A DNA stretch of 64,000 nucleotides from a virus. The translations under genes and the position numbers were made by a program. Shown here piece by piece: positions 5,461-46,743 of the stretch. Each line of letters opens with the position of its first letter. The stretch's first letter is position 1. The stretch covers positions 1 through 64,000 of IMG/VR virus record IMGVR_UViG_3300040801_001025; one strand, given 5' to 3'. The notes under the pieces are model-generated. The model was given only the letters and a program-made list of their open reading frames with translations. It did no database searches and had not been told where the DNA came from.

Positions 5461-5522
5461 TGAGTTTTCAAACTTTGGATTTTTACTAAATAACTTCACG
5501 TTATTACAAAGGAGAAAAATGT

Positions 5523-5936
5523 ATGGCGTTCCTAGAAGATACACAAGTTTTAGGTGGTGGTATTGAAATGCCACTAATGCAATGTAAATGGACAATTAAA
5601 ACCGCTCTTAGAGAAGAGCAAAATAAAGCAATACATAAAAATGTAATTTCAGCAGATATTGATTTAGTTAACAATGAATTGATAATTGTAGTAGAACAAG
5701 CACTACGTGATAATCACACTTATTCAGCTATTAAAGCTATGAAGCTACGTGAAAACGTAATAACAGTACAGCATTTAGATGGCAATGCTAATGTTTGCGC
5801 AGAGCTAACAATCCTTGCCACGCTTGTTGACCATGATTTTAAGCTCGACTACAGTAAAGCTGAAGTTGCAAAACATAAACTAACATTTGAAATAGGAAAT
5901 TTTTACACACAAGATGATAATCTCTCGACCTCTTAA
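5523..5936 (+). CDS. Hypothetical protein, possibly structural (137 aa)
   Basis: Unrecognised. Starts after AAGGAG; a late-promoter variant (ACTAAATA) lies about 35 bases upstream. The composition suggests mixed alpha/beta structure without membrane segments. Overlaps the sulfotransferase gene by 23 bases. Confidence 0.65.
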   Translation: MAFLEDTQVLGGGIEMPLMQCKWTIKTALREEQNKAIHKNVISADIDLVNNELIIVVEQALRDNHTYSAIKAMKLRENVITVQHLDGNANVCAELTILATLVDHDFKLDYSKAEVAKHKLTFEIGNFYTQDDNLSTS

Positions 5937-6513
5937 ATACGTTTTTATATCAACACCGAAGACTGGATCACATTCATTCTTTAAGCTGTTGGTAGACGAA
6001 TTTCAGGGGGAGAGACTTGGCCCATCCTTTCATCGTGTAGAGATGCCAGCCAAAACAAATGGATACACGATATTTTCCACATGCCGCAACCCTTATGATA
6101 GGCTTGTGGCATTGTGGAACTCTCTTCTACATGCACCGGACGACCGTAACAACTATCGCCATGCGTGGATGAGTGTGATCAGAGCAGATGATTTTTTATC
6201 GTTCTGTAGGTTTGTAGCTAAGCATCACACGCGCATCGAACACATGGCCAGCGTTCGCACACCAACCTTGATGACTCCGCAGTATAGATGGTATCGCAAG
6301 CTCCCTGAAAATGTGATACCATTGCATCTGGAAAGCATACATGATGAATTTCACGCCTTGCCTTTTGTCGATCATGAGGTTACCATACCTCACAGACTCA
6401 AGCGTAAGCATGCTACTTGGGATGAACTCAAGAATGATGAAATCATTGAATGTGCTAACAAATGGGCAGGCGAAGACTTTGAAAAGTTTGGATATCAAAA
6501 GGAAGGTGTGTAA
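5914..6513 (+). CDS. Sulfotransferase family protein
   Basis: Transfers sulfate from PAPS to a carbohydrate or other acceptor. The 5'-phosphosulfate-binding loop is 'STPKTGSHSF' at residues 13-22, following the strand 'YVFI'. The 3'-phosphate-binding segment is 'CRNPYDRLVALWNS' near residue 57. At 199 aa it is short but complete for a minimal sulfotransferase domain of the type found in marine phages. The acceptor cannot be told from sequence; a virion or surface glycan is an inference, suggested by a glycosyltransferase gene 2 kb away. Confidence 0.8.
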   Translation: MIISRPLKYVFISTPKTGSHSFFKLLVDEFQGERLGPSFHRVEMPAKTNGYTIFSTCRNPYDRLVALWNSLLHAPDDRNNYRHAWMSVIRADDFLSFCRFVAKHHTRIEHMASVRTPTLMTPQYRWYRKLPENVIPLHLESIHDEFHALPFVDHEVTIPHRLKRKHATWDELKNDEIIECANKWAGEDFEKFGYQKEGV

Positions 6514-6545
6514 TAAATATTAAAAATCCGTTTAGAACAGGTCTT

Positions 6546-7028
6546 TTGCATGGGGCTATTTTTTCTATCATTGTTTTCTTTGGTGTCGTTGCCGCACAGA
6601 ACGCATTTGGTAGCGAGCTTCAAGATATCATTCCGGGGAGCGAAGAAGTCATTTCCATGGATGAACAGTTTAGTGTGCGGTTCATGCGTGTCAATGGCGG
6701 GGGCTTTCATTTCGATATCAACGTGGTTTCGTCTCGTAATTTCATGAATACCTATGACGATCACCAACTCATGCCCAACAGCGATGCATTTAATGCACCT
6801 ACGTATTGGTATACCGTGTATGAGACACATGATAGTTTGCATCCTGCTCTTAATCAGGTTTATCTTGGTGGCGTAACTCACGAGACTGTATTTCATTCAG
6901 TCGGAACTGAGTCTGATGAAGATTATGTTCGACATTGGAGTGAAGAGCACCATTGTGATGCTACTCGATGGCGTCAGCTACCCGGAGAATATTTGCTGAT
7001 GGGACGCGGTACTGATATGTGCCGATAG
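6546..7028 (+). CDS. Exported protein with signal peptide
   Basis: Unrecognised secreted protein. A hydrophobic stretch ('IFSIIVFFGVVAAQNAFG') at the N-terminus is a signal peptide. The TTG used here leaves no positive n-region. In-frame upstream codons from an ATT at 6519 would add K-N-P-F-R-T-G and put GGAAGG 12 bases before the start, so the true start may be that rare ATT. The mature part has two Cys near the C-terminus (H-H-C-D and D-M-C-R) that could form a disulfide in the periplasm. Confidence 0.6.
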   Translation: MHGAIFSIIVFFGVVAAQNAFGSELQDIIPGSEEVISMDEQFSVRFMRVNGGGFHFDINVVSSRNFMNTYDDHQLMPNSDAFNAPTYWYTVYETHDSLHPALNQVYLGGVTHETVFHSVGTESDEDYVRHWSEEHHCDATRWRQLPGEYLLMGRGTDMCR

Positions 7029-27514: not shown

Positions 27515-28471
27515 ATGGCTAGAGCAAGTTTGAAAGACCTTAAGGCGAAGTTGAAGAAAGAAAAAGAAGCTACTAAGAAAACCAGTGGTGGTGGCTTTTG
27601 GTATCCTCTCTGGGACTTGCCGCACGAAGGTAAAACCTCCATCCGTATCCTCGAAGACCCGAACGAAGATAACGATCTGTACTACTACTTGCAGTATCTT
27701 GAGCATAATATCGAGATTGACGGCAAGTGGGAACGCATCCCGTGTCCTAAGACGTGGGGCCAACATAACGAATGCCCAATCTGCGAATTGTCTGCTAAGA
27801 TGTATGCAGCCAAGAAGCCAGAAATCGGCAAGTACTACTACCGCAATCTCTACACCATTGTCCGTGGTTTGATCACCAAAGACGGTCTAGTGTACGAAGA
27901 TGAAAGCGATGATGCAACTGGTACGGTTCGTCCGTTCAAGTTCTCCTATCAGCTTTCTCAGAAGCTCAAGAATGATGCAGACCAATTCATTGAAGAAAGT
28001 GATGAAGACGATGCTCCGTTCTATGATCTAGATGCAGGTATTGATTTCGTTATCAAGAAGATCGTTACTTCTGATGGTAAGAAAGAGTTTCCGAAGTACG
28101 ACATTGGTAGTGGATTCGCATTGAAGCCGAAGAAGATTCCTGATGCATTGCAGAAGAAAATTGGTGAACTCGAACCACTCGCTGCATTGCTGCCGCCTCA
28201 GCCAACCTATGATGAAGTTCATGCAAAGCTTGAAGCTCATCAGAACGTTGTTGGTAGTGATGAAGATGATGACGATGACGTAGCCTCTGATGAAGACATT
28301 GAGGCAATGATCAACCGTCAGCGTAATACTGTCGATGACGATGACGACGATAATGAAGTCGAGTCGTTGACTGAAGATGATGACGACGTTGATGTATCCG
28401 CACTGTTGGATGACGACGACGATGATGACGATGGTCTAGATGCACTAGCTAAGTTAGCAGCAGAAGACTGA
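27515..28471 (+). CDS. 32: Single-stranded DNA-binding protein gp32
   Basis: Coats ssDNA during replication and recombination. The basic N-terminus (about 1-22, Lys-rich) corresponds to the cooperativity domain. The OB-fold core has the zinc site 'CPKTWGQHNECPIC' (Cys77, His84, Cys87, Cys90). The C-terminal 70 residues are almost pure Asp/Glu with short neutral breaks, the protein-interaction tail. 318 aa against 301 in T4. A terminator follows. Confidence 0.93.
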   Translation: MARASLKDLKAKLKKEKEATKKTSGGGFWYPLWDLPHEGKTSIRILEDPNEDNDLYYYLQYLEHNIEIDGKWERIPCPKTWGQHNECPICELSAKMYAAKKPEIGKYYYRNLYTIVRGLITKDGLVYEDESDDATGTVRPFKFSYQLSQKLKNDADQFIEESDEDDAPFYDLDAGIDFVIKKIVTSDGKKEFPKYDIGSGFALKPKKIPDALQKKIGELEPLAALLPPQPTYDEVHAKLEAHQNVVGSDEDDDDDVASDEDIEAMINRQRNTVDDDDDDNEVESLTEDDDDVDVSALLDDDDDDDDGLDALAKLAAED

Positions 28472-28520: not shown

Positions 28521-29678
28521 ATGTCATTTATGAAGAAGTATCTCAAGACTCTTGAGAAGAACGATGATGTTGTCATCGGTCTAAAACCCCCTTCGTATTA
28601 TCTTGATACGGGGAACTACGCTCTCAATATGCTCATGTCAGGCAGAATTGAGGGTGGATCAGCACAGGGTCGTGTAATCGGTCTAGCTGGTCACTCTAGC
28701 TCTGGTAAGAGCTTAGTCGCGGGCAGCTTTGCTGCTCAAGTTGTTCGAGACGGTGGTATGGCACTTGTTATTGACTCTGAAGGTTCGCTTGATGAAAATT
28801 TCATGGCAAACCTCGGGGTTGACGTTGAAAGTGAGAATTACGAGCGTGTCGGTGTAACAACTATTCCTACTGCTGCACAGGTTGTCAACGGATTTGTTAA
28901 GATGTACCGTGAGAACAGTATAGATCAACGAGCGTTGATTGTGGTTGATTCTCTTGATAACCCGATGACTGAAAGTGAAGAAGAAGCACTAAACAGCAAG
29001 TTAACCCTTGGCGGTGACCAAGGTCAACATGCTAAACAACTAAAGCGTATGGGCAGACCGTGGGGTAACTCTATTACGAATTTGCCAATCACTATTGTCT
29101 GTACAAAGCAGGTTTACAAAAACCAAGACCCAGTTACTTATAAAGGCCAACCTTGGATCGTAACTGACGCTATGCAATATATCTGTTCGCAGATTATTTT
29201 GTTCGAGAAGTTGAACTTTAAGGACAAATCAACCAATCAGCATATGGGCTTCACCTTGAAAGCTAGTAGCTTCAAGAACCGTATTGCTCGTGAGAAGAAC
29301 AATGTAAAAATTGAGATTCCTTACGATCATGGTATTGAACCTTATAGTGGTCTACTTGATCTTGCACAGTCATTTGATGTTGTGCAAAAGAATGGTGGAT
29401 GGTATACTATGGGTGATAAGAAGTTCCAAGAGAAAGCGGCTCGTAACGATAAAGAACTCATGCAGAGTATCATTGAAGCAATTGCAGTTGCAAACGAAGA
29501 AGTTGATCCTGAGACTGGACGACCGAAGGTTCGTAAATTGGACGTTGATATGGACGGCATGGTAACTGAATTAGATAACCCGACTGAAGTAAAAAAGACT
29601 CGCAAGCAGAAACTAATCGAAGCGCGTGAGCATAAAGTTGGATTGGATGACGAAGATGACGAAGACCTTACTGGATAA
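28521..29678 (+). CDS. uvsX: UvsX recombinase (RecA family)
   Basis: Strand-exchange protein for recombination-dependent replication. Walker A 'GHSSSGKS' at 57-64, Walker B-like 'RALIVVDSLD' near 137-146, and the linker 'GDQGQHAKQLKR' of the UvsX family. 385 aa, close to T4 UvsX (391). The acidic C-terminus resembles that of other recombinases. Ribosome binding site TTGAGG. The end overlaps the next gene by 23 bases or more. Confidence 0.95.
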   Translation: MSFMKKYLKTLEKNDDVVIGLKPPSYYLDTGNYALNMLMSGRIEGGSAQGRVIGLAGHSSSGKSLVAGSFAAQVVRDGGMALVIDSEGSLDENFMANLGVDVESENYERVGVTTIPTAAQVVNGFVKMYRENSIDQRALIVVDSLDNPMTESEEEALNSKLTLGGDQGQHAKQLKRMGRPWGNSITNLPITIVCTKQVYKNQDPVTYKGQPWIVTDAMQYICSQIILFEKLNFKDKSTNQHMGFTLKASSFKNRIAREKNNVKIEIPYDHGIEPYSGLLDLAQSFDVVQKNGGWYTMGDKKFQEKAARNDKELMQSIIEAIAVANEEVDPETGRPKVRKLDVDMDGMVTELDNPTEVKKTRKQKLIEAREHKVGLDDEDDEDLTG

Positions 29679-30255: not shown

Positions 30256-30745
30256 TGAAATACTAGATATTCTCAAACGCCAGCGTCTCAAGACATTCTA
30301 CGACTTAAAAGAAGATACCTCAAACTTAAAGGACATTCTTGAACCATATCAAGACATGCTTCCTATTGCCCGAAAGCTAGTATCAGTTCGTGGTAAATAC
30401 GTCGAAGAAGTTTTGACAACGCACGGATCAGAATATCAGTTCTTTGATGAATGCAGATGGAGCATCAAGATGCTCTTGGATTATTTCACTGAACTGCTAA
30501 AGCATGAACGTGGCTTAGAATATCAGAAGATTCTAAACTCCAGTGCGAAAGTGATTAATGACAGTGCAATCAAATCTCTGATTGACGCAAAGCCTAACAT
30601 CTTACAGCGTACTCATCAACTCTTGATGATTCGCGATCTATACCAAAGATATAATGGCATTCTTGAGAGCTATCAACAAAGAGCATACCAACTTAACAAT
30701 TACACGAGGCATACCGAATACGGTACACTTAGAACAATCTTATGA
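30233..30745 (+). CDS. Helical protein in the recombination operon, possible UvsY analogue
   Basis: All-helical, charged protein of 170 aa. Its position between uvsX and uvsW and its composition would fit a recombination mediator such as T4 UvsY (137 aa), but there is no sequence motif that proves this. It ends with ATGA overlapping uvsW. The UvsY suggestion is inference from context only. Confidence 0.65.
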   Translation: MAQNKSNDEILDILKRQRLKTFYDLKEDTSNLKDILEPYQDMLPIARKLVSVRGKYVEEVLTTHGSEYQFFDECRWSIKMLLDYFTELLKHERGLEYQKILNSSAKVINDSAIKSLIDAKPNILQRTHQLLMIRDLYQRYNGILESYQQRAYQLNNYTRHTEYGTLRTIL

Positions 30746-32223
30746 GCGCACGAATTACTATACTTGACGAAGTTAATGTTTCAGTTACTGGACTAGAGCC
30801 AAGAGACATTAATTTCTTGTATGACAAATTTAGCATCTATGCTAAAGGTTTTCGCCACCAAGTAAAATTTAAACTTGGTCGATGGGATGGCAAGATACAA
30901 CACTTTTCTAAGCAAGGTAAGACTTACGTCAAGCTTTTGCCAGAAATCATCAAGTATTTGCGTGCCAGAGAATACAGTATCAAGCTTGTCGATAACCGTC
31001 AACAGCGTGATCTGAGCATTCCGCCTATTGACGAGAACTACTTGATTGATCGTGGATACGAAGACATCAAGTTGGGTGCTCATCAAGTTCGTGGCATCAA
31101 TGCGCTTACAAAAGCTGGTGGTGAAATATTTGAGGGCGGTACTGGTGCAGGCAAAACACTTATGACTGCCGTGTTAGCTCAGCTTTATGAAGAACATCAT
31201 AACTTCAGAACAATTGTCATTGTACCCACGAAAGACTTGATCACGCAGACTCGTAATGAAATGGTTGAGTTTGGTGTTGATGCGGGTTTGTATGGTGCCG
31301 AAAAAGACTTAGATCATACTCATATCGTGAGTACTTGGCAAACTCTACAGAAGAATCCCGCATTCATGGGTCAGTTCCAAGCTGTAATAGTTGATGAGTG
31401 CCATGGGGTCACGGGCGACGTACTTCGCAGCATATTAAATGATGCTGGTGCAAAGTGCGCTGTTCGTATAGGTTTGACTGGCACCTTACCAGAAGAAGAA
31501 ATTGATCAGATGGCTGTTCGTATTACACTTGGTAATGTAATCGAAAAAGTCGAAGCATCAGAATTGATTGCATGTGGTTGGCTTGCTGAGTTGAAACTTT
31601 ATAGCTATGAGCTTGTCGAAGACCTACGTCAAGAGTTTGCTGAGTTCATTGAGAAGAATCCGAAGTATGCCAATATTACATATAAGCAATACAAGAGTGG
31701 TAAACATTCGTTCCCTGATTACACCGCAGAGAAAAAGTATCTTCAAAAGAAAGAAGAGCGTTTAGATTTCTTGTCGAAGTTGATAGCAACTACAGGAAAG
31801 CAGAACACTTTGATTCTTGTGCCTAATGTTGAATTTGGTAGAAAGCTTGCACGTTCTATTGAAGGCGCAACATTCTTTTCGGGCAAAGACACTAGCAAAA
31901 TAAGACAGCAATTGTACTCGTCTTTTAATGAAGAAAATGGTATAATAGCTATTACAACCTATGCGCTTGCCTCCACTGGTCTTAATATCAAGAGAATTTT
32001 CAATCTATTCTTGATTGATGCTGGCAAAAGTTATGTTCAGGTTATTCAGAGCATTGGACGTGGATTGCGCCGTGCTCCTGACAAAGACAAGGTGTGGGTT
32101 TACGATGTGTATAGTGATACTCGTTTCTCGAAAACTCATGGTGGCAAGCGTAAGACACATTACAAGAAAAAGAATTATAAGTTCACTCATAAGAAAGTGG
32201 ACTACATAAACTTACTTATATAA
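30742..32223 (+). CDS. uvsW: UvsW-type DNA/RNA helicase
   Basis: Superfamily 2 helicase that unwinds branched DNA and R-loops and shifts the phage from origin- to recombination-dependent replication. N-terminal about 100 residues form the UvsW substrate-binding domain ('KLGRWDGKIQHFSKQGK'). Motif I 'GGTGAGKT' (132-139), motif II 'DECHG' (218-222), motif III 'GLTGT', motif VI 'QSIGRGLRRAPDK' (about 434). 493 aa, near T4 (503). Confidence 0.94.
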   Translation: MSARITILDEVNVSVTGLEPRDINFLYDKFSIYAKGFRHQVKFKLGRWDGKIQHFSKQGKTYVKLLPEIIKYLRAREYSIKLVDNRQQRDLSIPPIDENYLIDRGYEDIKLGAHQVRGINALTKAGGEIFEGGTGAGKTLMTAVLAQLYEEHHNFRTIVIVPTKDLITQTRNEMVEFGVDAGLYGAEKDLDHTHIVSTWQTLQKNPAFMGQFQAVIVDECHGVTGDVLRSILNDAGAKCAVRIGLTGTLPEEEIDQMAVRITLGNVIEKVEASELIACGWLAELKLYSYELVEDLRQEFAEFIEKNPKYANITYKQYKSGKHSFPDYTAEKKYLQKKEERLDFLSKLIATTGKQNTLILVPNVEFGRKLARSIEGATFFSGKDTSKIRQQLYSSFNEENGIIAITTYALASTGLNIKRIFNLFLIDAGKSYVQVIQSIGRGLRRAPDKDKVWVYDVYSDTRFSKTHGGKRKTHYKKKNYKFTHKKVDYINLLI

Positions 32224-32735: not shown

Positions 32736-33233
32736 ATGGCTAGAAAGAAAAAGGCTGAACCCGTAAGCATAGATGAATTGAAATCTTATGTGAAAGGTGC
32801 GATTGAGTTGAATGATGATGGCTGGCATCCTGATGCAAAGCAATGGAACAAGATTGTTGATATGATCATGAATGTCAAGGAGCCTGAACCGGCTCCTGCG
32901 GCACCAGCACCACACTATGGGCCACCAGCACAGCAAGGGACAGCTATGCAACCTGCTGGTAATTTGGGAGGTATGCCGCCGCAACCTCAGCCGGGTCAGG
33001 GGCTACCCACCGGAATGGGAGGAGCAGTGCCTAAGAATCCATATGAAATGGATGATCCAAATGTAGACCGTCCCGCTCCAATGAAGTTGCCAAGTGATGG
33101 TGCTCCTGTTCCAAAGTTTCTTAGAACAGGTGTTGAACAACGCGATGAAAATGGTAACATATCATCTGGTATCACAGTAAAAACTCCAAATATTGATACA
33201 TCGCAAAAACAGTATAAATCAGGATATGAATAA
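32736..33233 (+). CDS. Pro/Gly-rich hypothetical protein (165 aa)
   Basis: Residues 1-50 are a small helical domain with a Lys-rich start; residues about 50-105 are disordered, rich in Pro, Ala, Gly and Gln; the last 50 are polar. Function unknown. Overlaps the next gene by eight bases. ACGGAG precedes the ATG. Confidence 0.7.
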   Translation: MARKKKAEPVSIDELKSYVKGAIELNDDGWHPDAKQWNKIVDMIMNVKEPEPAPAAPAPHYGPPAQQGTAMQPAGNLGGMPPQPQPGQGLPTGMGGAVPKNPYEMDDPNVDRPAPMKLPSDGAPVPKFLRTGVEQRDENGNISSGITVKTPNIDTSQKQYKSGYE

Positions 33234-33768
33234 ACTCAACGGACGAACACTATATCCCGATGGGGATTCTATTGTCAGTAAAGAGTATTTGTATGAACAC
33301 GTACTCGATGGTGGCAGTGTAGCAGATGTTTGTTTAGATGAAGAAGATTATAACTCTGAAGAAATTAAAACCTATAATAGAAAATATCCATTAGACAGAG
33401 CACGTATCAAGACTTCGGTAAAGCCATTGTCCACAGAATGGAACATACCAGAAGAATATAAAAATCTGAATATAAAACAACATGTTATGAAATGTTTGGA
33501 ACGGGAATTGAAGGAACGCCCACTATCCACTGAGAAGATTAAGAAGCGTATCTATCGAACTAAGATGGAACTTCGTATCTGGAAAGAACGTGGTCTAGAT
33601 GATTTGCTCAGAACGCTCGTATACATAGTAAGTACCTTTGAAGAGAATGATATAGTTTGGGGGACAGGCAGGGGAAGCTCCTGTGCTAGCTATGTCTTGT
33701 ACTTAATTGGTATACATCAAGTAGATAGTGTACGGTACGGGCTGGATGTGGGCGAGTTCTTCCGCTAA
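33226..33768 (+). CDS. N-terminal half of a split C-family (DnaE-like) DNA polymerase
   Basis: Residues 146-180 carry 'GTGRGSSCAS', then 'LYLIGIHQVDSVRYGLDVGEFF', which is the start of the DnaE palm: G-x-G-R-G-S-x-x-x-S followed by [LY]-x-L-[GK]-I-x-x-[IV]-D-[PS]-[LV]-R-[YF]-x-L-x-F-E-R-F. The 70 residues before it are helical and match the region that precedes the palm in DnaE ('LERELKER...MELRIWKERGLDDLL'). No PHP domain is present. The protein ends at 180 aa, exactly where DnaE continues to the catalytic P-D-x-D-x-D-F motif. That motif opens the gene at 37962. The dNTP-binding Gly-Arg-Gly-Ser is intact. Located between uvsW and the clamp loader. Confidence 0.75.
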   Translation: MNKLNGRTLYPDGDSIVSKEYLYEHVLDGGSVADVCLDEEDYNSEEIKTYNRKYPLDRARIKTSVKPLSTEWNIPEEYKNLNIKQHVMKCLERELKERPLSTEKIKKRIYRTKMELRIWKERGLDDLLRTLVYIVSTFEENDIVWGTGRGSSCASYVLYLIGIHQVDSVRYGLDVGEFFR

Positions 33769-33776
33769 AGGTTCTG

Positions 33777-33784
33777 TATAAATA
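33777..33784 (+). promoter_or_regulatory. Late promoter box TATAAATA
   Basis: Exact box, 30 bases upstream of the ATG at 33815 with GAGAGG between. Confidence 0.75.
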
Positions 33785-33814
33785 CTCCTACTGTACCTAA
33801 ACGAGAGGAACCAT

Positions 33815-34207
33815 ATGTCTAGAGTAAGAAGCATAAAAGGTGAAATCGTAGACTTCGATTTCATGCGTACTAAGAAAAAAATGGAAGACCGTTCTAAATC
33901 CAAAGAAGTTGAAATGCGTGAGAACTATGTGGATATCAAACGTCGTCGTCGTAATCCTTATAGAAATGTTGCTGAACTTGTAGAAGAGCAGCGAAAGAAT
34001 GAAGATGATGTACGTTCTCGATTAAGAGCACAAAAAGCTCAGAAGGAAGCGGATGGTGAAGGTATTGAAAGTACACCAGAACCTACTACTACAGCCACAC
34101 CTACCGCAACTAGTCGTCGCACTTCAAAAACTGTGGTTAAGCGTAAGCAACCTACGCCAACCAGCACACCGGATGAAGACGATACACTTGAAGAAGATGA
34201 AGATTAA
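33815..34207 (+). CDS. Basic protein with Thr/Pro-rich tail (130 aa)
   Basis: Unrecognised. The first 75 residues are strongly basic and helical (K-R-R-R-R-N in the centre); the tail is Thr, Pro and Ser-rich with a final acidic run. A late promoter suggests a virion-associated or DNA-binding protein. No family is recognised. Confidence 0.65.
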   Translation: MSRVRSIKGEIVDFDFMRTKKKMEDRSKSKEVEMRENYVDIKRRRRNPYRNVAELVEEQRKNEDDVRSRLRAQKAQKEADGEGIESTPEPTTTATPTATSRRTSKTVVKRKQPTPTSTPDEDDTLEEDED

Positions 34208-34216
34208 GGATAATAT

Positions 34217-34561
34217 ATGTCAGAACAAGAACTACAGGCCATCGATGATCACATTCTATTTGAATTCGTAGAAGATGTGGGAGGCGGTGGCTTCTTGCAG
34301 AAAAGTGGAAGCGGTGTAGTCATCGCAGAAGGGCACGAGAAACAACTTGATACTTGTAGATGGATTAGAGCATTATCCATTGGCCCTGATGTAAATGAGG
34401 AATTCAAGGTAGGAGACGTTCTCCTAATTGAAAATCTTCAATGGACAACTATGTTCATGGTCAAAGATAAAGGTCAAAAGTATTGGCAGACTAAGGCTGA
34501 GCATGTTCTAGCTACTATTGACCCTGATAACCCACCGGAAGAAATCAAGAACTTCCTATGA
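34217..34561 (+). CDS. GroES-like co-chaperonin (gp31 analogue)
   Basis: Probable partner of the host GroEL for folding the capsid protein. The 114-residue product has the cpn10 layout: N-terminal strand 'AIDDHILFEF', a mobile-loop region around residues 18-30 ('GGGGFLQKSGSGVVIAE'), a central 'IGPDVNEEFKVGDVLLIENLQW' and a C-terminal strand 'YWQTKAEHVLATI'. The pattern [IV]-G-P-x(5)-F-x-V-G-D-x-V-L matches GroES/gp31. The identity of the loop residues is too divergent to be certain. Confidence 0.7.
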   Translation: MSEQELQAIDDHILFEFVEDVGGGGFLQKSGSGVVIAEGHEKQLDTCRWIRALSIGPDVNEEFKVGDVLLIENLQWTTMFMVKDKGQKYWQTKAEHVLATIDPDNPPEEIKNFL

Positions 34562-34569
34562 TCTGATAC

Positions 34570-34622
34570 TTGATATATGGGGAGTTCTGGAGTATAATGC
34601 TCCTAAAAAGGACTCCCCATAT
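34570..34622 (+). promoter_or_regulatory. Sigma70-like promoter and operator-like dyads before the gp44 gene
   Basis: TTGATA (34570-34575), 17 bases, TATAAT (34593-34598). The -10 sits in the loop of GGAG/CTCC (34589-34592 with 34600-34603). An outer perfect 11-bp repeat ATATGGGGAGT (34575-34585) and ACTCCCCATAT (34612-34622) flanks everything, and its right arm covers the start codon of the clamp-loader gene. Confidence 0.75.
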
Positions 34623-35547
34623 GCTACAAAAATTATGGGTCGAGAAGTATCGGCCTACTTCCTTAGATGAATACATCTTTCAAAATAGCAGTCACGATGA
34701 GGCATTTCGTCAGTACATCAAAGACGGTACAATTCCTAATTTATTACTAGCTGGCCATCCCGGCACAGGTAAAACGGCACTTGCAAATATACTCAAGCAT
34801 GAGTTAGATATTGCAGATGCTGATTTCAAAGTCATGAATGCGTCTGACGATAACTCAGTAGAAACAGTTCGTAGAGAAATCAAAGCATTTATTCGTACAC
34901 TTCCATTAGGTGATTTTAAAGTCGTCTTCTTAGACGAGGCTGATTACCTTACGCCAAACGCTCAAGCTGCACTTCGCGGTATCATGGAAGAAAATAGCGA
35001 TAGTGTTAGATTCATTCTAACATGTAATGCTCCGCAAAAACTGCACAAAGCTATCAAGTCTCGTTGTCAGGAATATGCATTTGAGAGTCTGGACAAGAAG
35101 ACTATGATGCGTGCTGCTGCTAAAATTCTAGTGGCTGAAAAAATTAAAGCTAAAGGTACTAAAATTCTAGCAGAATATGTAGACTTGGCATATCCTGATA
35201 TGCGCAAACTGATACAGATGCTTGAGCAGGGCTCTCGTACTGGCGAACTTCTTCCTCCCGAAGAACCTACTGATTCTCTTATGACAATGGTCGAAATTGC
35301 CGATGTACTTGAGAATGATGGATGGTTAGAAGCAAGGAACAGACTGGCCGGTAAGCTCAATGAAGATGACTTTGTGCCAGCTTATCGATTCCTTTACGAA
35401 CATCTGCATGAGCTTGGTAAATTCGAAGACCCTGACAAATGGGTAGAAGGCCAGCTTATTATCACAAACTATTTAAGAGACGACGCGATAATTGCTGATC
35501 GTGAAATGAATTTTTCAGCATGCCTATTAAGATTGGAGAAAGTATAA
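34621..35547 (+). CDS. 44: Sliding clamp loader large subunit gp44
   Basis: AAA+ ATPase that opens the gp45 clamp. Begins 'MLQKLWVEKYRPTSLDEYI', the standard RFC/gp44 start. Walker A 'GHPGTGKT' (45-52), Walker B 'VVFLDEADYL' (about 101-110), sensor 1 'RFILTCNAP' and the arginine-finger 'SRCQ' segment are all present. 308 aa, near T4 gp44 (319). The start at 34621 is set by homology; the frame stays open upstream through the promoter region. The start codon is in the arm of an inverted repeat and has only a weak ribosome binding site (AAGGAC). Confidence 0.95.
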   Translation: MLQKLWVEKYRPTSLDEYIFQNSSHDEAFRQYIKDGTIPNLLLAGHPGTGKTALANILKHELDIADADFKVMNASDDNSVETVRREIKAFIRTLPLGDFKVVFLDEADYLTPNAQAALRGIMEENSDSVRFILTCNAPQKLHKAIKSRCQEYAFESLDKKTMMRAAAKILVAEKIKAKGTKILAEYVDLAYPDMRKLIQMLEQGSRTGELLPPEEPTDSLMTMVEIADVLENDGWLEARNRLAGKLNEDDFVPAYRFLYEHLHELGKFEDPDKWVEGQLIITNYLRDDAIIADREMNFSACLLRLEKV

Positions 35548-35548
35548 A

Positions 35549-35872
35549 ATGCGTTCATTCATAACTGAAGAACAAAAGAAAACAATAAAGCAGGAAGAAG
35601 AGCTAGATGCGGTTGCTTCATTTCCTGATAAGAATCAGAAACTAGCGTGGAAGCGTAAGCGGAAACGCATTGTAGAGTTGATTGGTAGAATTGAACCATA
35701 CGAAGAACAGATTCGAGATTTGATTCTGAAGAAGCAGCCAATCATGGATCAGATTGATGAGGTACGTGCAGCTATGGTGAAGGACTGTATTCATCCTCGC
35801 GAAGAGCTTGTTCATAAGGGCACACACATTGAATGTAAATTCTGTCAGAGGAAACTAAAACCAGTTGGCTGA
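35549..35872 (+). CDS. Helical protein with C-terminal zinc-ribbon-like Cys (107 aa)
   Basis: Unrecognised. Mostly helical and charged, with 'CIHPREEL' and then 'HIECKFCQRKL' at the C-terminus, i.e. C-x-H ... C-x2-C, a possible zinc-binding knuckle. It lies between the two clamp-loader subunit genes, two bases after the first and overlapping the second. Confidence 0.65.
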   Translation: MRSFITEEQKKTIKQEEELDAVASFPDKNQKLAWKRKRKRIVELIGRIEPYEEQIRDLILKKQPIMDQIDEVRAAMVKDCIHPREELVHKGTHIECKFCQRKLKPVG

Positions 35873-36317
35873 GCGATTAGACATACATGAAGTATTGCGA
35901 AAAGTGGATGCGTTTGATCGTGATTACTTTCGCAATCTTAGCGATGAAGAACAGAAAGGTCTATCACCTTACATCATGATGCGATGGCTAGGAGGTTGTA
36001 AATCACCTCTTCAGATTCAGCTTGTGAACAAATTCATGAACAGTGCAGTGTTTGAGCTTGGGGATCATCCCAAGCTCCTGTATAATCTTGCGTTGTGCTC
36101 TACTGATCGTCGTCCTAAGAAGTACAGCTTTATAAAGACTGCAAAGGATAAGAGTCTGGGCAAAGTTGCTGAGGTCGTGAAACGATATTACAAGTGCAGC
36201 GGTAGAGTTGCAGTTCAATACTTGGAAGTATTGGACGATGCTGATATTTTACAAATGGCCGAAGAGCTTGGCATGCAAGATGATGAAATAAAGAAACTTA
36301 AACTGGAGTTGAAGTGA
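35865..36317 (+). CDS. 62: Clamp loader small subunit gp62
   Basis: Non-ATPase subunit of the gp44/62 loader. Features shared with gp62 of T4-like phages: 'DYFRNLSDEEQKGLSPYIMMRWL' near residues 19-41 and 'LVNKFMNSAVFELGDHPKLLYNLALC' near 54-79. 150 aa against 187 in T4. The start appears to be TTG at 35865, overlapping the previous stop, with AGAGGA about 12 bases upstream; no ATG fits. GTGA overlap with the next gene. Confidence 0.8.
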   Translation: MAERLDIHEVLRKVDAFDRDYFRNLSDEEQKGLSPYIMMRWLGGCKSPLQIQLVNKFMNSAVFELGDHPKLLYNLALCSTDRRPKKYSFIKTAKDKSLGKVAEVVKRYYKCSGRVAVQYLEVLDDADILQMAEELGMQDDEIKKLKLELK

Positions 36318-36991
36318 AAAATTATTTCGAATGCAAATACTGCTTTAAGAAGTACACCAGTGAAAAGCTATTCAACAAGCATGAATGTAAAGAAATGCGA
36401 ATTGAAAAGCTAATGCGTAGTAATACTGGCATGGCGGCATATGAGATTCATTGCGAGTGGAGACGTGCAAGAGGTATGGCACCGCTATCTAAAGAACGTT
36501 TTAGCGAATCCCGAGCATTGACTTCCATGGTCAAGTTTGTAAAATTCTCCAAGCGTGTTGCTCTACCTGCGCGTTCAAAGTTTATCAAATACATGTCTGA
36601 GCTTGGCATTCATGCTAAGGACTGGTGTAACAATAAAGTCTATGAGCATTACATCTCTAAGTTTGATGAATTAGTAACGCCAGAAGAACAAGCTGATGTG
36701 ACGTTAGAAACGATTAATCAACTTGCGAAAATCTATCGGTGTGAAACAGGTGATGTGTTAGCTCACATGCTACCAGACACTGCGATAAAGCTCATGCAAG
36801 CTCGTAAATTCTCACCATGGGTGATGCTACTATCTACTAAGTTTCACAGCTTCATGATGTATGGAATGTCACCGGAGCAACGTGCCCTACTTGAAGTCTA
36901 CGTTGATCCTAAGATTTGGAATGACAGACTTAAAGAGAATCCTGAGTTCACAAACCGAATGAAAAAGATTGTAAAATCTTTAGGGCTTTAA
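36314..36991 (+). CDS. C2H2 zinc-finger protein (225 aa)
   Basis: Begins with GTG in a GTGA overlap with gp62. Residues about 7-25 '[19 protein letters not shown]' form a single C2H2/C2HC zinc finger, followed by a basic helical region and a helical C-terminal domain. Similar proteins occur beside clamp-loader genes in marine T4-like phages, with no known role. Its end overlaps the convergent tail-fibre gene by four bases. Confidence 0.7.
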
Positions 36992-37917
36992 TATCTGACA
37001 GCTATAAATCTATATGACCATTGACCAGTAGTTACAGCCACACCTTGGTTATTGCTACCACCGCCATTTTTTGGACATATGTAAGGGCCTTGCGTGATAG
37101 AATATGTCGTATTTGTCCATTTAAAATAAAGATTAGTAGCATTGCAATATATGACAAATCTGTTTTGGTTAACAGGAATACCGCCACCAACGTTCACCTG
37201 TAAAGTTTCAACTGCACCACCGCCGACTGGAATTCTCTCACCAACTACATAACCGTTATTTGCGGATGTGCATTCTAAATATACCATATAAATGTCTGGA
37301 ACGCCACCAAGACCGTGTGATTCAGTAATGGTAGCTGTGGTAAGTGATCGTAAGCCTGACCTAAACACTGTTCCGGCAACGTCACCCGCTGGTCCCTGCG
37401 GACCTTGTGGACCTGTTGGACCGGCTGGGCCTGTTGGACCGGCTGGACCGGCTGGACCTGTAGCACCTGTCGCACCTGTTGGACCGGCTGGACCGACTGG
37501 TCCCGGTGGACCCGGTGTCAATGAAATAGTATCAACTTCATCTTTTAATTCTTGAATAGCATCTTGTACATTATTTGAACCTATGCTATTATACGGTGTG
37601 AAACTAACATCATTTGCATTAATTGTACTACCTAATGTCGCCCATGTTGAACCATTGAAAACATAAAGCTGCTCATCGGTTTGGTTCCACCATGTTTGAC
37701 CTTCAAGTGGATTATTGATTACGCTAGAAGGCGGTGTACCCGGAGTTGGACCTTCAGGTGATGAAAAGTTTGCAGCAAGTTGTACAAGGTTTTGCTGTCG
37801 AGCAGCACCATAATCAAGACGGCGTTTACCAGTGAAGGTCACACCATGATTGAATACAACCTCTGTGTCTAAAACTGAAAAACTACTCCCATCGGGAAGA
37901 TTAATAGTATAGGCCAT
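36988..37917 (-). CDS. Tail fibre protein with collagen-like repeat
   Basis: Probable receptor-binding or fibre component. The ATG at 37917 follows GCGGAG and a minus-strand late promoter. Residues 1-130 contain a typical fibre module ('[24 protein letters not shown]', one Trp-repeat unit like those in the 14.8 kb protein). Residues 136-179 are about 14 Gly-x-y collagen triplets (GPxGPx/GATGAT) and would form a trimeric triple helix. The C-terminal 125 residues are a beta-rich tip. 309 aa in all. Confidence 0.85.
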
Positions 37918-37937
37918 TATATAACTCCGCTTTACTA

Positions 37938-37945
37938 TATTTATA
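37938..37945 (-). promoter_or_regulatory. Late promoter box TATAAATA (minus strand)
   Basis: TATTTATA on the plus strand, 21 bases upstream of the collagen-like fibre gene. On the plus strand the overlapping TATAAAGG may serve the divergent polymerase-half gene. Confidence 0.75.
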
Positions 37946-37961
37946 AAGGGGTCCATAACAC

Positions 37962-38549
37962 ATGGATATTGACATAGATATCGCACCTGAAGTTGATGTA
38001 GAGGAATTATTCCCTAATGTCATTCGCAGTTCGCGAATTGAGAATGACGAACTCAAGAAACACAATGTCGGGTATCATTTTCAAAACATAGCGGTTGATC
38101 CTATAACTGGTTTTGCTGCAATTCCAGCAAAACCAGATAAACCTGTCGATCAGCTTAAAGAACATGGATATATTAAAATTGATATGATTACTGTAAATCT
38201 ACTTAAGCATTTTAAATCTAAAGAAGAAATGCGAGAATTGCAAGAAAAGGAGCCTGATTGGTCACTACTTGAAGATGAAGAAGTTGTTTCTAAACTTTTT
38301 CACTTAGCAAAGCATTTTGATGTTATTTCTAGAGTTAAACCAAGGTCCATTGTGGCACTTGCTGATGTATTTGCTTTGATTCGTCCGAACAAACTTAAAA
38401 TGTTAGATAAATACCTTAGTAACCCGGAGCAGTATCGGGAAGAGCTTTTTACTAAACGCGATCCATCTGATATGAGACGCGCACACGCTCTTCCTTACGC
38501 TCTGCTTATTGTGCTACAATTACATTTGATAAAAGAAGGTAGAATATGA
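37962..38549 (+). CDS. C-terminal half of a split C-family (DnaE-like) DNA polymerase
   Basis: The protein opens M-D-I-D-I-D-I, the catalytic P-D-x-D-x-D-F motif of DnaE (Asp2 and Asp4 for E. coli Asp401 and Asp403). Further matches in order: 'KKHNVGYHF' (His-Ala-Ala-Gly-Val-like), '[21 protein letters not shown]' (residues 61-81; third catalytic Asp at Asp74, E. coli Asp555 in K-F-D-F-L-G-L), '[23 protein letters not shown]' (120-142; the fingers motif R-L-x-P-x-x-F-x-D-L-x-A-L-x-A-L-x-R-P-G) and '[20 protein letters not shown]' (172-191; F-x-K-S-H-A-x-A-Y-A-x-x-x-Y). The protein is 195 aa, far smaller than the corresponding region of DnaE. It pairs with the gene ending at 33768. ATGA overlap with the next gene. 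Confidence 0.75.
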
Positions 38550-39869: not shown

Positions 39870-42800
39870 TTATGATGTACTTTGTGCCGCTACAGAGTTC
39901 AATACGTTTCCGCTCGAAGCGATGTCACCAACATCAGTACTTGTTGTGAATGGCGCAGCAAATGGGAATCTATCAATTCTATTAGATAACGTGTCGCCAG
40001 CGTGATAACCATCACTTGCTGATCGCAATGCCCTACCTAGACGTTTTGGTACAGCTAGATCGCCTACATCGGTGGCCGTAACAAAAGGTGTTGAGAATGG
40101 GAACCTATCGACTTGTGCAGTCCCTGCGCCACCGGGGAAATTAAGATCACCTGCAACAAAGTAACCATCACTATCAGATTGTGTTCCACCAGTTCTCCAG
40201 CGTTCTGTAATTAGATCACCAACGTCAGTTGATGTTACAAAAGGTGAGGACAATGGGAAGCTCTCAATAGTATTAAGCAAAATAGGTGCAGGGTTATTCG
40301 GGTTTCTACCACCCGAAACATAGCCATCTGTATCAGATTCGTGTCCAGAGCCATTAACGCTGGCTTGTGTCATATCACCAATGGCGCTTGAAGTTGTAAA
40401 CGGAGCACTGAATGGGAATGAACGAATACTACTTCTGACAGCCGGACTTAATGTTGGTTCAAATCCACCAATTGTAAATCCTTGAGAACTTGATAGATCA
40501 CTCACGCCTGAAGCATTAGCAATAGGAGCTATCAAATCGCCTACATCGGTAGCCGTTACAAATGGTGATGATGCTGGTATTCTATCAACAGACGCATAGA
40601 TAATTGGAACACCACTATCGAAGCCGCCTGCTACAAATAAATCAGTACTTCCACTATGACCTGTGGCAACTGATCGATTAGAATTCAAACTACCTATGTC
40701 TGTAGCTATGGTAAAAGGTGATGATAGTGGGAACGATCTAACGTCATTGTACACAATACTCGGTGAACTACTGTAACCACCTGAAATATATCCATCATTA
40801 TAACTTAATGCCCCTGCTGATGGCGTTGGTGTAACTGTAGGTGTCGGTGTGGCAGTCGGAGTTAATGTAGGTGTAACTGTCACAGTTGGTGTCGGTGTTG
40901 GCGTTGGCGCAAATCCCGTGCCATCTTCTAAGCCAGAAGAACCTCGTGCGATACCACCTCCGATATCACCTACATCAGTGCTATTTGTAAATGGCGAACT
41001 GAATGGGAATCTTGTAATAGAGAATAAGGTTACGGGTGCTAATCCACCACCGATGAATCCATCTGTGTTGCTTGAGTGACCAGAGGCTTGATATCTGCCA
41101 GTAGGTCCAATATCTCCAACATCTGTTGCCGTTACAAATGGAGCCGAGAATGGGAATCGATCAACCGTTCTAACTGAGCCCGGTGCTGTACCTCCAGCCC
41201 TATATCCGTCAGTGTCAGAATTATGTCCCGTACTCAAGTTGATAGTTTCAGTTAGATTACCAACATCTGTGGCTGTAGTAAAGCTTGTAGTAAACGGATA
41301 GCGTTCAATCGTATTTACAAACGGTGTGACAGGTGTTCTACCGCCCATAGTATAACCATGGGTGTCTGATTGTGTTCCAGCAAAACGATTTGTAGCTACA
41401 TTCAAATCACCTATATCAGTTGCAGTTATAAATGGTGCTGCAAACGGATATTCTTGAATTACGTTGGTAACGCCCCCGGCGCTATCACCGCCAGCAACGT
41501 AACCACTGTTACCATCACTTGAAGCACTCAAGTTGAACAGTCCGGTTGTTAAGTTTCCAACGTCGGTTGTGGTTGTAAATGGCGACGTGAAAGGGAAACT
41601 CTCAACACTATCACTTCTTCCAAATGGACCCGTGCCAGTAGCGCCACCCATCACATATCCATCAGAACCTGAAGCTGCACCTTCGCCTACAAAAATTGCC
41701 ACTTGTAGACTTCCAATATTAGTCGCATTTGTAAATGGTGAACTGAACGGGAATGATCGTATTTCAGAAGTTGATACATTAGCTGGAGTAGTGTAACCAC
41801 CTGCTGTATAACCTGTAAACAATCCTTCTAGCTCTGATAACGGTGTTGGAGATGGTGTAGGAGTAATCGTTACCGATACTGTAACGGTTGGCGTCACTGT
41901 AGGCGTTGGCGATACTGGCACTCCTGAAGATGATGGCGTAACTGTTGGTGTCAACGTTGCGGTCAACGTTGGTGTCAACGTTGGTGTCAACGTAGTAGTC
42001 GGAGTTACACTAGCAGTATTAGTTGGCGTCACAGTTGGCGTCACAGTTGGCGTAATCGAAGCTGTTGGTGTTACACTAGCAGTTACGGTAGGTGTATTAG
42101 TTGGCGTTGCTGTTAGTGTCGGCGTCACAGTTGGCGTAATTGAAGCTGTTGGCGTTACACTAGCAGTATTAGTTGGTGTAATCGTTGGCGTTGCTGTTAG
42201 TGTCGGCGTAATCGAAGCTGTCGGAGTTGGTGTCACGGATGCACCCGGCGTACCTGCTGGTGTTCCAGTAGGTGTCAATGTTGGCGTAGTGCTTTGAGTA
42301 ACAGTAACTGTTGGAGTCACTGTCGCTGATGGTGTTACGGTAGCAGTTACTGTAGGTGTAACAGTATTTGCTGGTGTTACACTTGGTGTAGTAGTTGGCG
42401 TGATTGTAACTGTGGCCGTTAGCGTCGGCGTAATCGAAGCTGTCGGAGTTGGTGTCACGGATACGCCCGGTGTACCTGCTGGTGTTCCAGTAGGCGTTAA
42501 TGTTGGTGTCACTGTAGCCGTTGGTGTTACACTAGCAGTATTAGTTGGTGTAATCGTTGGCGTTACAGTCGCACTCGCGGTTATTGTAGGCGATAATGTT
42601 GGTGTCGGAGTAACGGTAGCCGTATTAGTTGGTGTAAGAATTACTGTTGCTGTTGGAGTTGCTGTAACAGTTAATGTTGGTGTCAGCGTTGGTGTCAACG
42701 AAATCGTTGGCGTAGCTGATGGCGTAATAGTTACCGTGGCGCTCATTGTTGGCGTCAACGTTGGTGTTAGTGAAATAGTCGGCGTCACAGTTGGCGTCAC

Positions 42801-44240
42801 AGTAGCTGTTGCTGTGTTTGTTGGTGTAAGTGTTGGAGTCAACGAAATAGTTGGAGTCACCGAAGGTGTTACCGAAGGTGTCAATGAAATCGTTGGTGTC
42901 AACGTTGGTGTAACTCGCGGGGTAAATGATGGCGTCACCGTAACCGCAGGTGTTTGTGTTGGCGTAACACTTGGTGTAGTAGTTGGCGTCACCGTATTTG
43001 TTGGTGTTAGACTAATTGTCGGCGTGTTAGTTGGCGTCAACGAAACTGTTGGTGTAACAGATGGTGTTACAGTATTTGACGGTGTAATAACTGGTGTAAA
43101 CGATGGCGTCACTGTCACTGGCGGTGTTACAGTTGGTGTTACAGTTGGTGTCACGCTCGTCGTAGGCGTCACGCTCGTTGTTGGATTCGGCGTAAATGCC
43201 GGTGTCTGAGTAACCGAAGGTGTTACCGTTGGTGTAATTGTTGGCGTATTTGTAGCAGACGGTGTTACCGTTGGCGTAATAGTATTCGTAGGCGTCACCG
43301 ATGGCGTTACCGTTGGCGTAATAGTATTCGTTGGTGTCGGTGTCGGCGTTGACGACAAAGTAATGAATGGTGTAAACGGTGGCGTATTCGTTGGCGTCAA
43401 TGTTGGTGTTAACGAAATTGTTGCTGTTAATGTTGGTGTCAACGAAATAGTTGGTGTCAGCGTTGGAGTCAACGAAATAGTTGGCGTCAATGTCGGTGTT
43501 AACGAAATTGTTGGTGTCAACGTTGGCGTAACTGTTGGTGTTACAGTAGCAGTGACTGTGCTAGTTGGTGTTACAGTAGCAGTGACTGTGCTAGTCGGTG
43601 TTACAGTAGCTGTTGGAGTAATACTTGGCGTTGGAGATACGGTTACAGATGGCGTAACCGTAGCAGTCACTGTGGCTGTTGGCGTCAACGTCGGCGTAAC
43701 CGTAGGAGTAGCAGTACTTGTTGGCGTCAATGTCGGCGTAACCGTAGGTGTGTTTGTCGCTGTCTGTGTCGGCGCAGGAGTTTGTGTTGGTGTAACGGTA
43801 GCTGTAGGTGTTACAGCCGCTGTAGCAGTTGCGGTAGGCGTTACAGCCGCCGTTTGCGACGGTGTTTGTGATGGCGTCTGAGACGGAGTAACAGTAACAG
43901 TTGGTGTAACCGTAGCAACCGGAGTTGGTGTAGGTGTAGGGAAGAACGTATCCACACCATAGAAAAAGAAATGCACGATGCCAGTTGTCGGTTCTGAGAA
44001 TTCAAACAGGACTGTATTACCATCGACAATACGGAATTTATCAGGAGTTACTTCTTGATTATTTATATAAACTTTTGCAATAACGCCACGAGTGTTCTGA
44101 CCGTGATCGATGGTCCAAACACTTTGAGCAGTTTCAATAGAAACAACAAAGGCAAGAAGCCCTTCAGCCACTTCAGTATTCCTGATGACATATTTACCTG
44201 TCGCCAAGTCCAGATAAAGTGGCACAATTCTACTTGTCAT
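39870..44240 (-). CDS. Long fibre with Thr/Pro stalk and two six-repeat propeller-like heads (1456 aa)
   Basis: Probable receptor-binding fibre. Residues 1-100 are a beta domain shared with the neighbouring 104-aa protein. Residues 101-800 are almost only Thr, Pro, Val, Ser, Ala and Leu in T-P-T-[VLIA] units, an extended rigid stalk that could be O-glycosylated. Residues about 806-1105 hold six repeats of some 50 residues with D-G-Y-x-x-G-G ... F-P-F-[ST]-[SA]-P-F-x-[TN]-x-T-D-[VI]-G-[DN]-[LI]. A second short Thr/Pro linker (about 1109-1143) precedes six more such repeats to the end. Six repeats each would fit two kelch-like six-bladed propellers. A minus-strand CATAAATA (44263-44270) lies upstream. 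Confidence 0.75.
41841..43940 (-). repeat. Degenerate 12-base coding repeat of the fibre stalk
   Basis: About 2.1 kb made of ACN-CCN-ACN-GTN-type units coding for Thr-Pro-Thr-x. Many units repeat exactly at the DNA level over tens of bases (for example runs of GGTGTCAACGTT on the plus strand), so the tract should be prone to length change by recombination. Confidence 0.85.
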
Positions 44241-45154: not shown

Positions 45155-45566
45155 GGATGACAAAAAAGTCGTTTTTGACGGCATCAAAGAAAACCCCAAT
45201 CAATCTGAACACCAAAAAGAGCTAGAACACTACGTGGCACTATTCCGTGTGGCAGTTCGTGCTCAAATGGCCCTCGCCAAAGAATACATGGCGTATCGCA
45301 GTAATGTACTTGAAGCCAAAACGGCACCCAAGAAAGAACTTTACGAGAAGAAGTGTGCTAAAGTCAAGGCTGAGTTTGATGAAGTCAGTGAAAAAGCAAT
45401 GGCATTGGCTGATCTACTTGCGTCGAAAGGTATCGATGTGGACTCCATTGTCGATAAAATGATTACAGAGCATGCCCAAGATCAAGAACAATCTGCAAAG
45501 GACGAAGAATTGGTTGGTGAAATCGCTGAAGTACAAGTAGATGAAATTCCGAAGGATACTGAATGA
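45153..45566 (+). CDS. Helical hypothetical protein (137 aa)
   Basis: Unrecognised. Entirely helical and charged, with long amphipathic stretches that should form a coiled coil (about 20-90) and an acidic tail. Ribosome binding site TAGGAG. First gene of a tightly overlapping operon that runs to 48142. Confidence 0.7.
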   Translation: MDDKKVVFDGIKENPNQSEHQKELEHYVALFRVAVRAQMALAKEYMAYRSNVLEAKTAPKKELYEKKCAKVKAEFDEVSEKAMALADLLASKGIDVDSIVDKMITEHAQDQEQSAKDEELVGEIAEVQVDEIPKDTE

Positions 45567-46147
45567 AATTAGTTGGAATATCTGGTGCCCAAGGACAGGG
45601 CAAAAGCACTACTATAAATGAACTAGCAAAGCAAGAAGGCTTTATTAGAAGTGAAGTGCAAACTGCCAGAAGTATTTTAACAGGATGGCAGTTGACACTA
45701 AACGAAGTTAACAAATATCCACCGTTGAAAGTCAGGTTTCAAGAGGAATTGCTTAGACGCCATGAACAAGCAATCACACTTAATCCTGTGACCAAAACAC
45801 TAGAGCATGGAATTGTTCTTATAGAACGAACATTTGCGGATATTTTTGTATATGCAATGGTTTCACTAGGAGCATATAACGACTATAGTGATTGGCTAGA
45901 AGATTACTACAGACGTTGTGCTAAAGCACAAGAAGAACATTTTGAGCATGTTTTTTATCTGACTGGTCGGCAAAACTATACACCGGAAGAAGATGGCGTT
46001 CGCTCAACAAACAAATTCTTTGCATCTATGGTTGATCACCAGATTGCATATCATAGTATTAAGATGGGTAATTGCCACTATGTCGATACACCAGATTTAA
46101 ATGAAAGAGTTCAAAGGATTATAGACGTATGTACAAACCTAAAGTAA
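45563..46147 (+). CDS. P-loop kinase, AAA_28/NadR-kinase-like
   Basis: Predicted nucleoside or nucleotide kinase. Walker A 'GAQGQGKST' at residues 8-16 after a first beta strand; 'IVLIERTFADIFVYAMVSLG' (about 89-108) corresponds to the D-R-x-x-x-D-x-x-x-Y substrate-binding segment of the AAA_28 (NadR C-terminal, ribosylnicotinamide kinase) and deoxynucleoside-kinase families. 194 aa. The NadR resemblance raises the possibility of a third NAD-salvage step, but a dNMP-type kinase is equally possible. ATGA overlap with the preceding gene. Confidence 0.65.
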   Translation: MKLVGISGAQGQGKSTTINELAKQEGFIRSEVQTARSILTGWQLTLNEVNKYPPLKVRFQEELLRRHEQAITLNPVTKTLEHGIVLIERTFADIFVYAMVSLGAYNDYSDWLEDYYRRCAKAQEEHFEHVFYLTGRQNYTPEEDGVRSTNKFFASMVDHQIAYHSIKMGNCHYVDTPDLNERVQRIIDVCTNLK

Positions 46148-46743
46148 TATTTTGTGCTGACTGTGAAACAAGTGGTCTCAATTGGGGCTATGAAGAAGCT
46201 TGTAGTAATATCAAAGTTTGTCAGGATTATCAGTCCGTTCAATGGGGATTTGTAGCAGTTGATGCTACAACCTTAGAAACACTTGGTGAGAAAAAGATCA
46301 ACATCAAATGGAACGGTGTTGCCAAGTGGACACAAGGTGCTGAGAAGATTCATGGTCTTAGTAAAGAATGGCTAGAAGAAAATGGTGTAACTGAAGAAGA
46401 GGCCATTGTTGAAATGGTAGAATTCTGGTCGGAATACGTAGACTTATCGAATCCTATTTTCTTCATGGGTCACCATTGGCGCTCATTTGATCATTTCTTC
46501 TTGGAAGATTTGTTTATCAGACACGAAGTAGAGGGTGTGAAGTTTAGTCATAAAGTGCTAGACACATACTCATTGGCCATGGGAACTCTTGGACTGTCGA
46601 GTTCCGATGATATTTTCAAAGCGGTTGGGCTAAATAATAGAACAACCCATGATGCTTTGGAAGATGCACAAATGACAGTCGAAGCATTTAAAAGGATACG
46701 CAGAATATGGAAAAAGCTATTACAGAACTATCAAGAAAAGTAG
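46129..46743 (+). CDS. DnaQ-like 3'-5' exonuclease (DEDDh)
   Basis: Proofreading-type exonuclease. Exo I 'FCADCETSGLN' (Asp11, Glu13), then 'IHGLSKEW', Exo II 'GHHWRSFDHFFL' (Asp near residue 123) and Exo III 'THDALEDAQMTVEAF' (His-x4-Asp). 204 aa, the size of the DnaQ epsilon catalytic domain or of T4 DexA-type enzymes (227 aa). Could proofread for the split DnaE-like polymerase encoded in this window; that link is an inference. It overlaps the kinase gene by 19 bases. Confidence 0.85.
   Translation: MYKPKVIFCADCETSGLNWGYEEACSNIKVCQDYQSVQWGFVAVDATTLETLGEKKINIKWNGVAKWTQGAEKIHGLSKEWLEENGVTEEEAIVEMVEFWSEYVDLSNPIFFMGHHWRSFDHFFLEDLFIRHEVEGVKFSHKVLDTYSLAMGTLGLSSSDDIFKAVGLNNRTTHDALEDAQMTVEAFKRIRRIWKKLLQNYQEK

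Follow-up and report, generated by a model that had tools for sequence, protein, structure and literature searches.

We describe here a pair of genes in a 64,000-nucleotide stretch of viral DNA (in the following, the window), which is part of the 84,498-base virus record IMGVR_UViG_3300040801_001025; the analysis also covered that record. The two genes, located at 33226..33768 and 37962..38549 on the + strand, code for proteins of 180 and 195 amino acids, which correspond to the N-terminal and the C-terminal half (N-half and C-half) of a split minimal DNA polymerase III (Pol III) alpha subunit, the DnaE-type C-family polymerase of bacteria. This split minimal polymerase is real and conserved across hundreds of phage sequences. 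Based on sequence, we consider it probable (roughly 65%) that the two products are the chains of one minimal C-family nucleotidyltransferase or polymerase, which would act as a second polymerase for short DNA tracts. An initial annotation of the window had proposed a C-family core that lacks the PHP domain and is split just before the catalytic DxDxD motif. Both open reading frames (ORFs) and the motifs quoted for them are exactly as described there, and the proposed core is borne out by sequence profiles, models of the single halves, the invariance of the catalytic residues and the co-occurrence of both halves in all 21 related genomes searched.

Sequence and structure of the two halves

The N-half was matched by the Pfam model DNA_pol3_alpha with an E-value of 1.1e-10, exceeding the curated cut-off, by DnaE models of NCBIfam with E-values down to 1.4e-10, and by the PHROG 'DNA polymerase' families phrog_11127 (8.5e-42) and phrog_405 (3.8e-12). 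When a profile of the N-half family was compared to PDB sequences, the nine best matches were all Pol III alpha (top E-value 1.9e-6), and hhalign placed the protein on residues 285-396 of E. coli DnaE (E-value 1e-8). The N-half consists of a helical region and the GTGRGSSCAS loop, which binds deoxynucleoside triphosphates (dNTPs), and its C-terminus (...YGLDVGEFFR) is equivalent to the point ...ERFLN in E. coli DnaE. Structural modeling using AlphaFold2 resulted in a mean predicted local distance difference test (pLDDT) score of 92.9, and the top 12 Foldseek matches of this model in the PDB were Pol III alpha, followed by PolC entries.

Similarly, the C-half was matched by phrog_11778, also a 'DNA polymerase' family, with an E-value of 1e-59, and weakly by phrog_405 (0.0048). 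At E<=1, its family profile retrieved nine sequences from the PDB, each of which was Pol III alpha (top E-value 1.6e-4), and profile alignment placed it on residues 541-641 of E. coli DnaE. The motif landmarks could be assigned to the E. coli enzyme one after the other: the DxDxD strand (residues 2-6; DIDIDI2 vs PDFDVDF400) to D401/D403/D405, H34xxG37 (HNVG34 vs HAGGVVI511) to H511, K72-I-D74 (KID72-74 vs KFD553-555) to K553/D555, R141-P142 (RPNKL141 vs RPGPL639) to R639-P640, and H175 (HALPYAL175 vs HSAAYAL760) to H760. In the AlphaFold2 model (mean pLDDT 94.5) the DxDxD segment resides on strand 3-7 and D74 on strand 73-77, and the top 13 Foldseek matches in the PDB were all Pol III alpha. 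The Foldseek matches of the single halves had probabilities of about 0.8-1.0 with raw E-values of 1e-3 to 0.3 (best 1e-3 to 1e-2); as these E-values are weak, our argument leans on the specificity of the matches and on the sequence profiles. The initial annotation had regarded a profile match to C-family polymerases as one of the critical points of its proposal, and such a match was found for each half.

Motif spacing relative to E. coli DnaE indicates what has been dispensed with. About 78 residues are absent between the landmarks of the C-half at the position which, from the published structure of E. coli DnaE, we take to be that of the thumb. About 87 residues of the fingers are absent as well, among them the region around R709/R710 in E. 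coli, and nothing in the C-half is equivalent to E. coli DnaE beyond about residue 775. Pfam identified no PHP, HhH or OB domain in the two halves, and Pfam scans of ten neighbouring genes revealed no third Pol III alpha fragment with the missing fingers. The C-family features that the pair does not display are, thus, the thumb, the full fingers, the PHP domain and the clamp-binding region.

Conservation and genomic context

Each half is matched by 90 annotated phage records, far beyond chance, and the identity of family members to the proteins of the window ranges from 32 to 63%. The residues D2, D4, D6, H34, G37, K72, D74, W100, P127, R141, P142 and H175 are invariant in 72 of 72 non-redundant C-halves, as are the GxGRGS motif and residues R122 and E126 (ORF numbering) in 94 of 94 non-redundant N-halves. 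The hallmarks of the Pol-beta-fold palm of C-family enzymes, namely the GxGRGS loop, the DxD motif and the third aspartate, were therefore found throughout both sets. The N-half ends 2-4 residues past the E-F anchor in 88 of the 94 sequences, and the start codon of the C-half lies immediately 5' of DxDxD in 35 of the 72. Judged by these alignments, there is one homologous break point in essentially all members. The initial annotation had suggested searching for fused versions in related phages; no ORF comprising both halves was present among 90 C-half and 118 N-half ORFs from the best-matching 80 loci. In a tree based on 289 columns, the split proteins form a clade apart from single-chain DnaEs (support 100), joined to DnaE by one long branch of 2.2 substitutions per site, which favours neither an ancestral nor a reduced state.

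The gene order is similarly conserved. In 40 loci with both halves, including the window and Xanthomonas phage XacN1, the N-half precedes the C-half on one strand, mostly spaced by 4-7 kb from start to start; the halves are 4.2 kb apart in the window and about 15 kb in XacN1. Tens of kb separate the two half-genes in other phages, such as 121Q and PA5oct. In nearly all 40 loci the halves enclose genes for a GroES-like protein, gp44, gp62 and a zinc-finger-like protein, and gp32, UvsX and UvsW are encoded upstream of the N-half wherever the locus extends far enough. In the window, where all of these genes are on the + strand, this block starts with a gp32-like single-strand DNA-binding protein (27515..28471; phrog_1192, 1e-21), followed by a UvsX-like recombinase (28521..29678; phrog_97, 1.3e-48) and a UvsW-like helicase (30742..32223; UvsW_N, 3.7e-8; ResIII, 8.7e-21). 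Between the halves are a small gene directly 3' of the N-half, whose position is kept in many relatives (33815..34207), a GroES/gp31-like co-chaperonin in a conserved position (34217..34561; phrog_931, 1.6e-7; phrog_3188, 5.4e-4), a gp44-like clamp-loader ATPase with an uncertain start codon (34570..35547; phrog_168, 1.2e-69; Gp44_lid), a gp62-like small clamp-loader subunit (35865..36317; phrog_225, 1.1e-7) and the zinc-finger-like gene, which in most relatives is likewise located after gp62 and ahead of the C-half (36314..36991; phrog_11058, 7.2e-39). The PHROG and Gp44_lid matches thereby support the gp31-, gp44- and gp62-like genes that had been noted at this position. T4-like genes in the 84,498-base record comprise those for a gp41-like helicase, the large terminase, gp32, UvsX, UvsW, gp44 and gp62.

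The 21 genomes also encode further replication proteins. A B-family polymerase was identified in 20 of them, XacN1 included, the exception being the window's own 84.5-kb fragment. A DnaG/gp61-type primase is likewise present in 20, including the phage of the window, where a profile match places it just outside the window (67951-68952 of the 84,498-base record). A DnaQ-like exonuclease (phrog_192) occurs in 18 and a recognisable gp45 clamp in seven. In some sequences the B-family polymerase was matched in two different open frames (G007:246837-249098, G009:54942-56630, G013:236315-239392 and W03:3529-5033), which suggests that gp43 may also be split in several related genomes.

Proposed enzyme and alternative explanations

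As the DxDxD motif and D74 reside on the C-half and the GxGRGS loop on the N-half, a complete active site needs both chains. In the proposed enzyme, the helices would come from the N-chain, as would the GxGRGS loop, to which the dNTP phosphates bind. The C-chain would contribute the strands of the palm, which carry the three catalytic carboxylates D2, D4 and D74, together with the neighbouring K72 and fingers of reduced length. Both chains are predicted to come together in the absence of an intein or covalent joining, which would result in an enzyme of about 375 amino acids devoid of PHP, thumb and beta/tau-binding domains, whose joint active site would adopt the DnaE-like Pol-beta fold. That every catalytic residue is invariant argues for an active enzyme; the pair would probably be capable of catalysis and might also carry out template-directed DNA synthesis. 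The setting of gp32, UvsX, UvsW and the clamp loader suggests synthesis of short DNA tracts, which might occur in recombination-dependent replication, gap filling, repair or lesion bypass. A replacement of gp43 by the C-family core was also considered. As relatives of the phage also carry a B-family polymerase, this was rejected for the group, and a role as sole primase was discarded since the DnaG/gp61-type primase is encoded in the same genomes. The split enzyme is, therefore, most likely an extra polymerase, being neither the main replicase nor the sole primer maker. More tentatively, and at somewhat short of even odds, it might be speculated that these phages employ the thumb-less, PHP-less heterodimer as a functional second replicase or as a polymerase for repair, which uses the phage's gp44/62 clamp loader beside the B-family replicase.

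Several points weigh against this interpretation. The C-half matched the Pfam finger domain with an E-value of 0.021, which is under the cut-off and indicates strong divergence. The loss of the thumb and of about 87 fingers residues could preclude normal primer-template extension, and the activity might be confined to short patches or independent of a template. We infer by homology only that the two chains build a single palm; the pathway is also inferred, and the operon neighbourhood is weak evidence for it. Thus, the halves might assemble into a nucleotidyltransferase other than a DNA polymerase, such as a non-templated end-adding enzyme or a helper in primer synthesis, that acts in recombination or repair. 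The absent thumb, the much reduced fingers, the availability of a B-family polymerase for replication and the still invariant catalytic residues would agree with such an enzyme. However, the DnaE motifs for dNTP binding and the R-P fingers motif have been retained, and priming is already covered by the primase, so that we regard this alternative as unlikely.

A catalytically dead, polymerase-derived scaffold or accessory factor of the clamp loader, as might be suspected from the extreme truncation and from genes that flank the clamp loader, appears less likely still: some active-site residues would be expected to be lost, yet the metal- and dNTP-binding residues are invariant in both non-redundant sets with the remainder diverging down to about 35% identity. 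The two proteins are encoded by distinct genes, which in other phages can be separated by as much as tens of kb, and their association is deduced by homology, so that they might also function separately; with an incomplete active site in either half alone, both halves always occurring together in the genomes searched, and a break that separates neighbouring elements of a single fold, this is very improbable. Hardly any weight is to be given to a sequencing or assembly artefact, a decayed gene or an intein-split DnaE. That the pieces together look like a broken DnaE is the sole point in its favour, and the identical break is shared by phages of many hosts, both cultured and metagenomic. Intein splicing or trans-splicing was rejected, as the termini of the halves are only a few residues away from the homologous point and intein pieces would not fit in; at the junction, where 88 of 94 N-halves end and 35 of 72 C-halves start at the break, no split-intein pieces of the cyanobacterial type were found.

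Hundreds of large phages keep a polymerase active site made of two tiny proteins beside a complete T4-like replisome. If the pair is a working enzyme, as we favour, it would rank with the smallest known cores of C-family polymerases and reveal which parts of DnaE are dispensable; as a second replicase or repair polymerase, it would have an architecture that has so far not been observed in biochemical work. If it is not a working polymerase, a polymerase palm has been turned to another job. With its tight, conserved arrangement around the clamp loader, the family lends itself to co-expression and testing.

Neighbouring genes

The split enzyme may have the zinc-finger-like protein as a further partner. 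In the window, the zinc-finger-like gene and the C-half are separated by an inserted gene for a collagen-like protein with Gly-X-Y repeats (36988-37986, -). This gene probably starts at 37917, so that a separate upstream region, which contains a Shine-Dalgarno-like site (AAAGGGG, 37945-37951), is left to the C-half. Further downstream, 39870-44240 (-) encodes a fibre- or adhesin-like protein of 1456 amino acids with a very long region of Thr-Pro-Thr-Val repeats, followed by repeats of the GGY/FPF type. A DnaQ/epsilon-like 3'-5' exonuclease (46129..46743, +; phrog_192, 3.1e-18; RNase_T, 2.9e-8) is, by association only, a possible proofreading partner. Its gene is overlapped by a nucleotide-kinase-like gene (PHROG thymidylate kinase), the two spanning 45563-46743, and a kinase and DnaQ-like exonuclease pair is also located 3' of the C-half in XacN1 (L002:20263-21461).

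Comparison with known systems

The initial annotation had considered a reduced C-family core kept in pieces to be new. However, Iyer et al. (2021, Viruses 13:63, PMC7824862) have already described exactly this split of a minimal Pol III alpha for the jumbo phages of group 2.2, and the pair of the window is therefore not new as a kind. Those authors proposed that the halves cooperate in synthesis or repair and that the two-piece state is ancestral (PMC7824862). As in their family, PHP and other DnaE accessory domains are absent from the pair in the window, and Atu_ph07, which was assigned to group 2.2 (PMC7824862), has homologues of both proteins. The genes of the group 2.2 phages were described as distantly located (PMC7824862), whereas they are close, around the clamp-loader block, in the window and most loci examined here; the wide spacing is incidental to the family and does not define it. 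The window pair belongs to this described family, with its two genes lying close to each other. In the literature searched, no later or experimental study of the split minimal Pol III alpha was found.

In XacN1, ORF245 and ORF228 share 43% (N-half) and 56% (C-half) identity with the window proteins, in the same gene order and with the same downstream pair of a deoxynucleoside monophosphate kinase and a DnaQ-like exonuclease; XacN1 differs in its wider spacing and in that only the N-half carries a polymerase annotation. The phage pair shares the palm motifs and partial fingers with E. coli Pol III alpha. Unlike bacterial DnaE, it consists of two chains and lacks PHP, thumb, about 87 fingers residues, HhH, OB and the clamp/tau-binding regions.

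A different case is the DnaE of Tenacibaculum phage Larrie (L188:3397-4944 and 4947-6977), which is broken between ERFLN and PDIDSDF, in the same loop as in the window. In contrast to the pair described here, the Larrie enzyme is full-length and retains PHP, fingers and HhH, and its two genes are adjacent. The Larrie N-piece has an extra tail of about 53 amino acids and the C-piece an extra head of about 18; Pfam matched nothing in either, and they might represent a split Hint/intein-like element of very small size. In our tree the Larrie DnaE groups with single-chain DnaEs, and by this sequence-based placement its break is an independent split. That loop of DnaE has thus been broken on more than one occasion, and the case for a necessarily ancestral two-piece state is weakened: such a break can arise from a full-length enzyme, and the two-piece state need not be ancestral.
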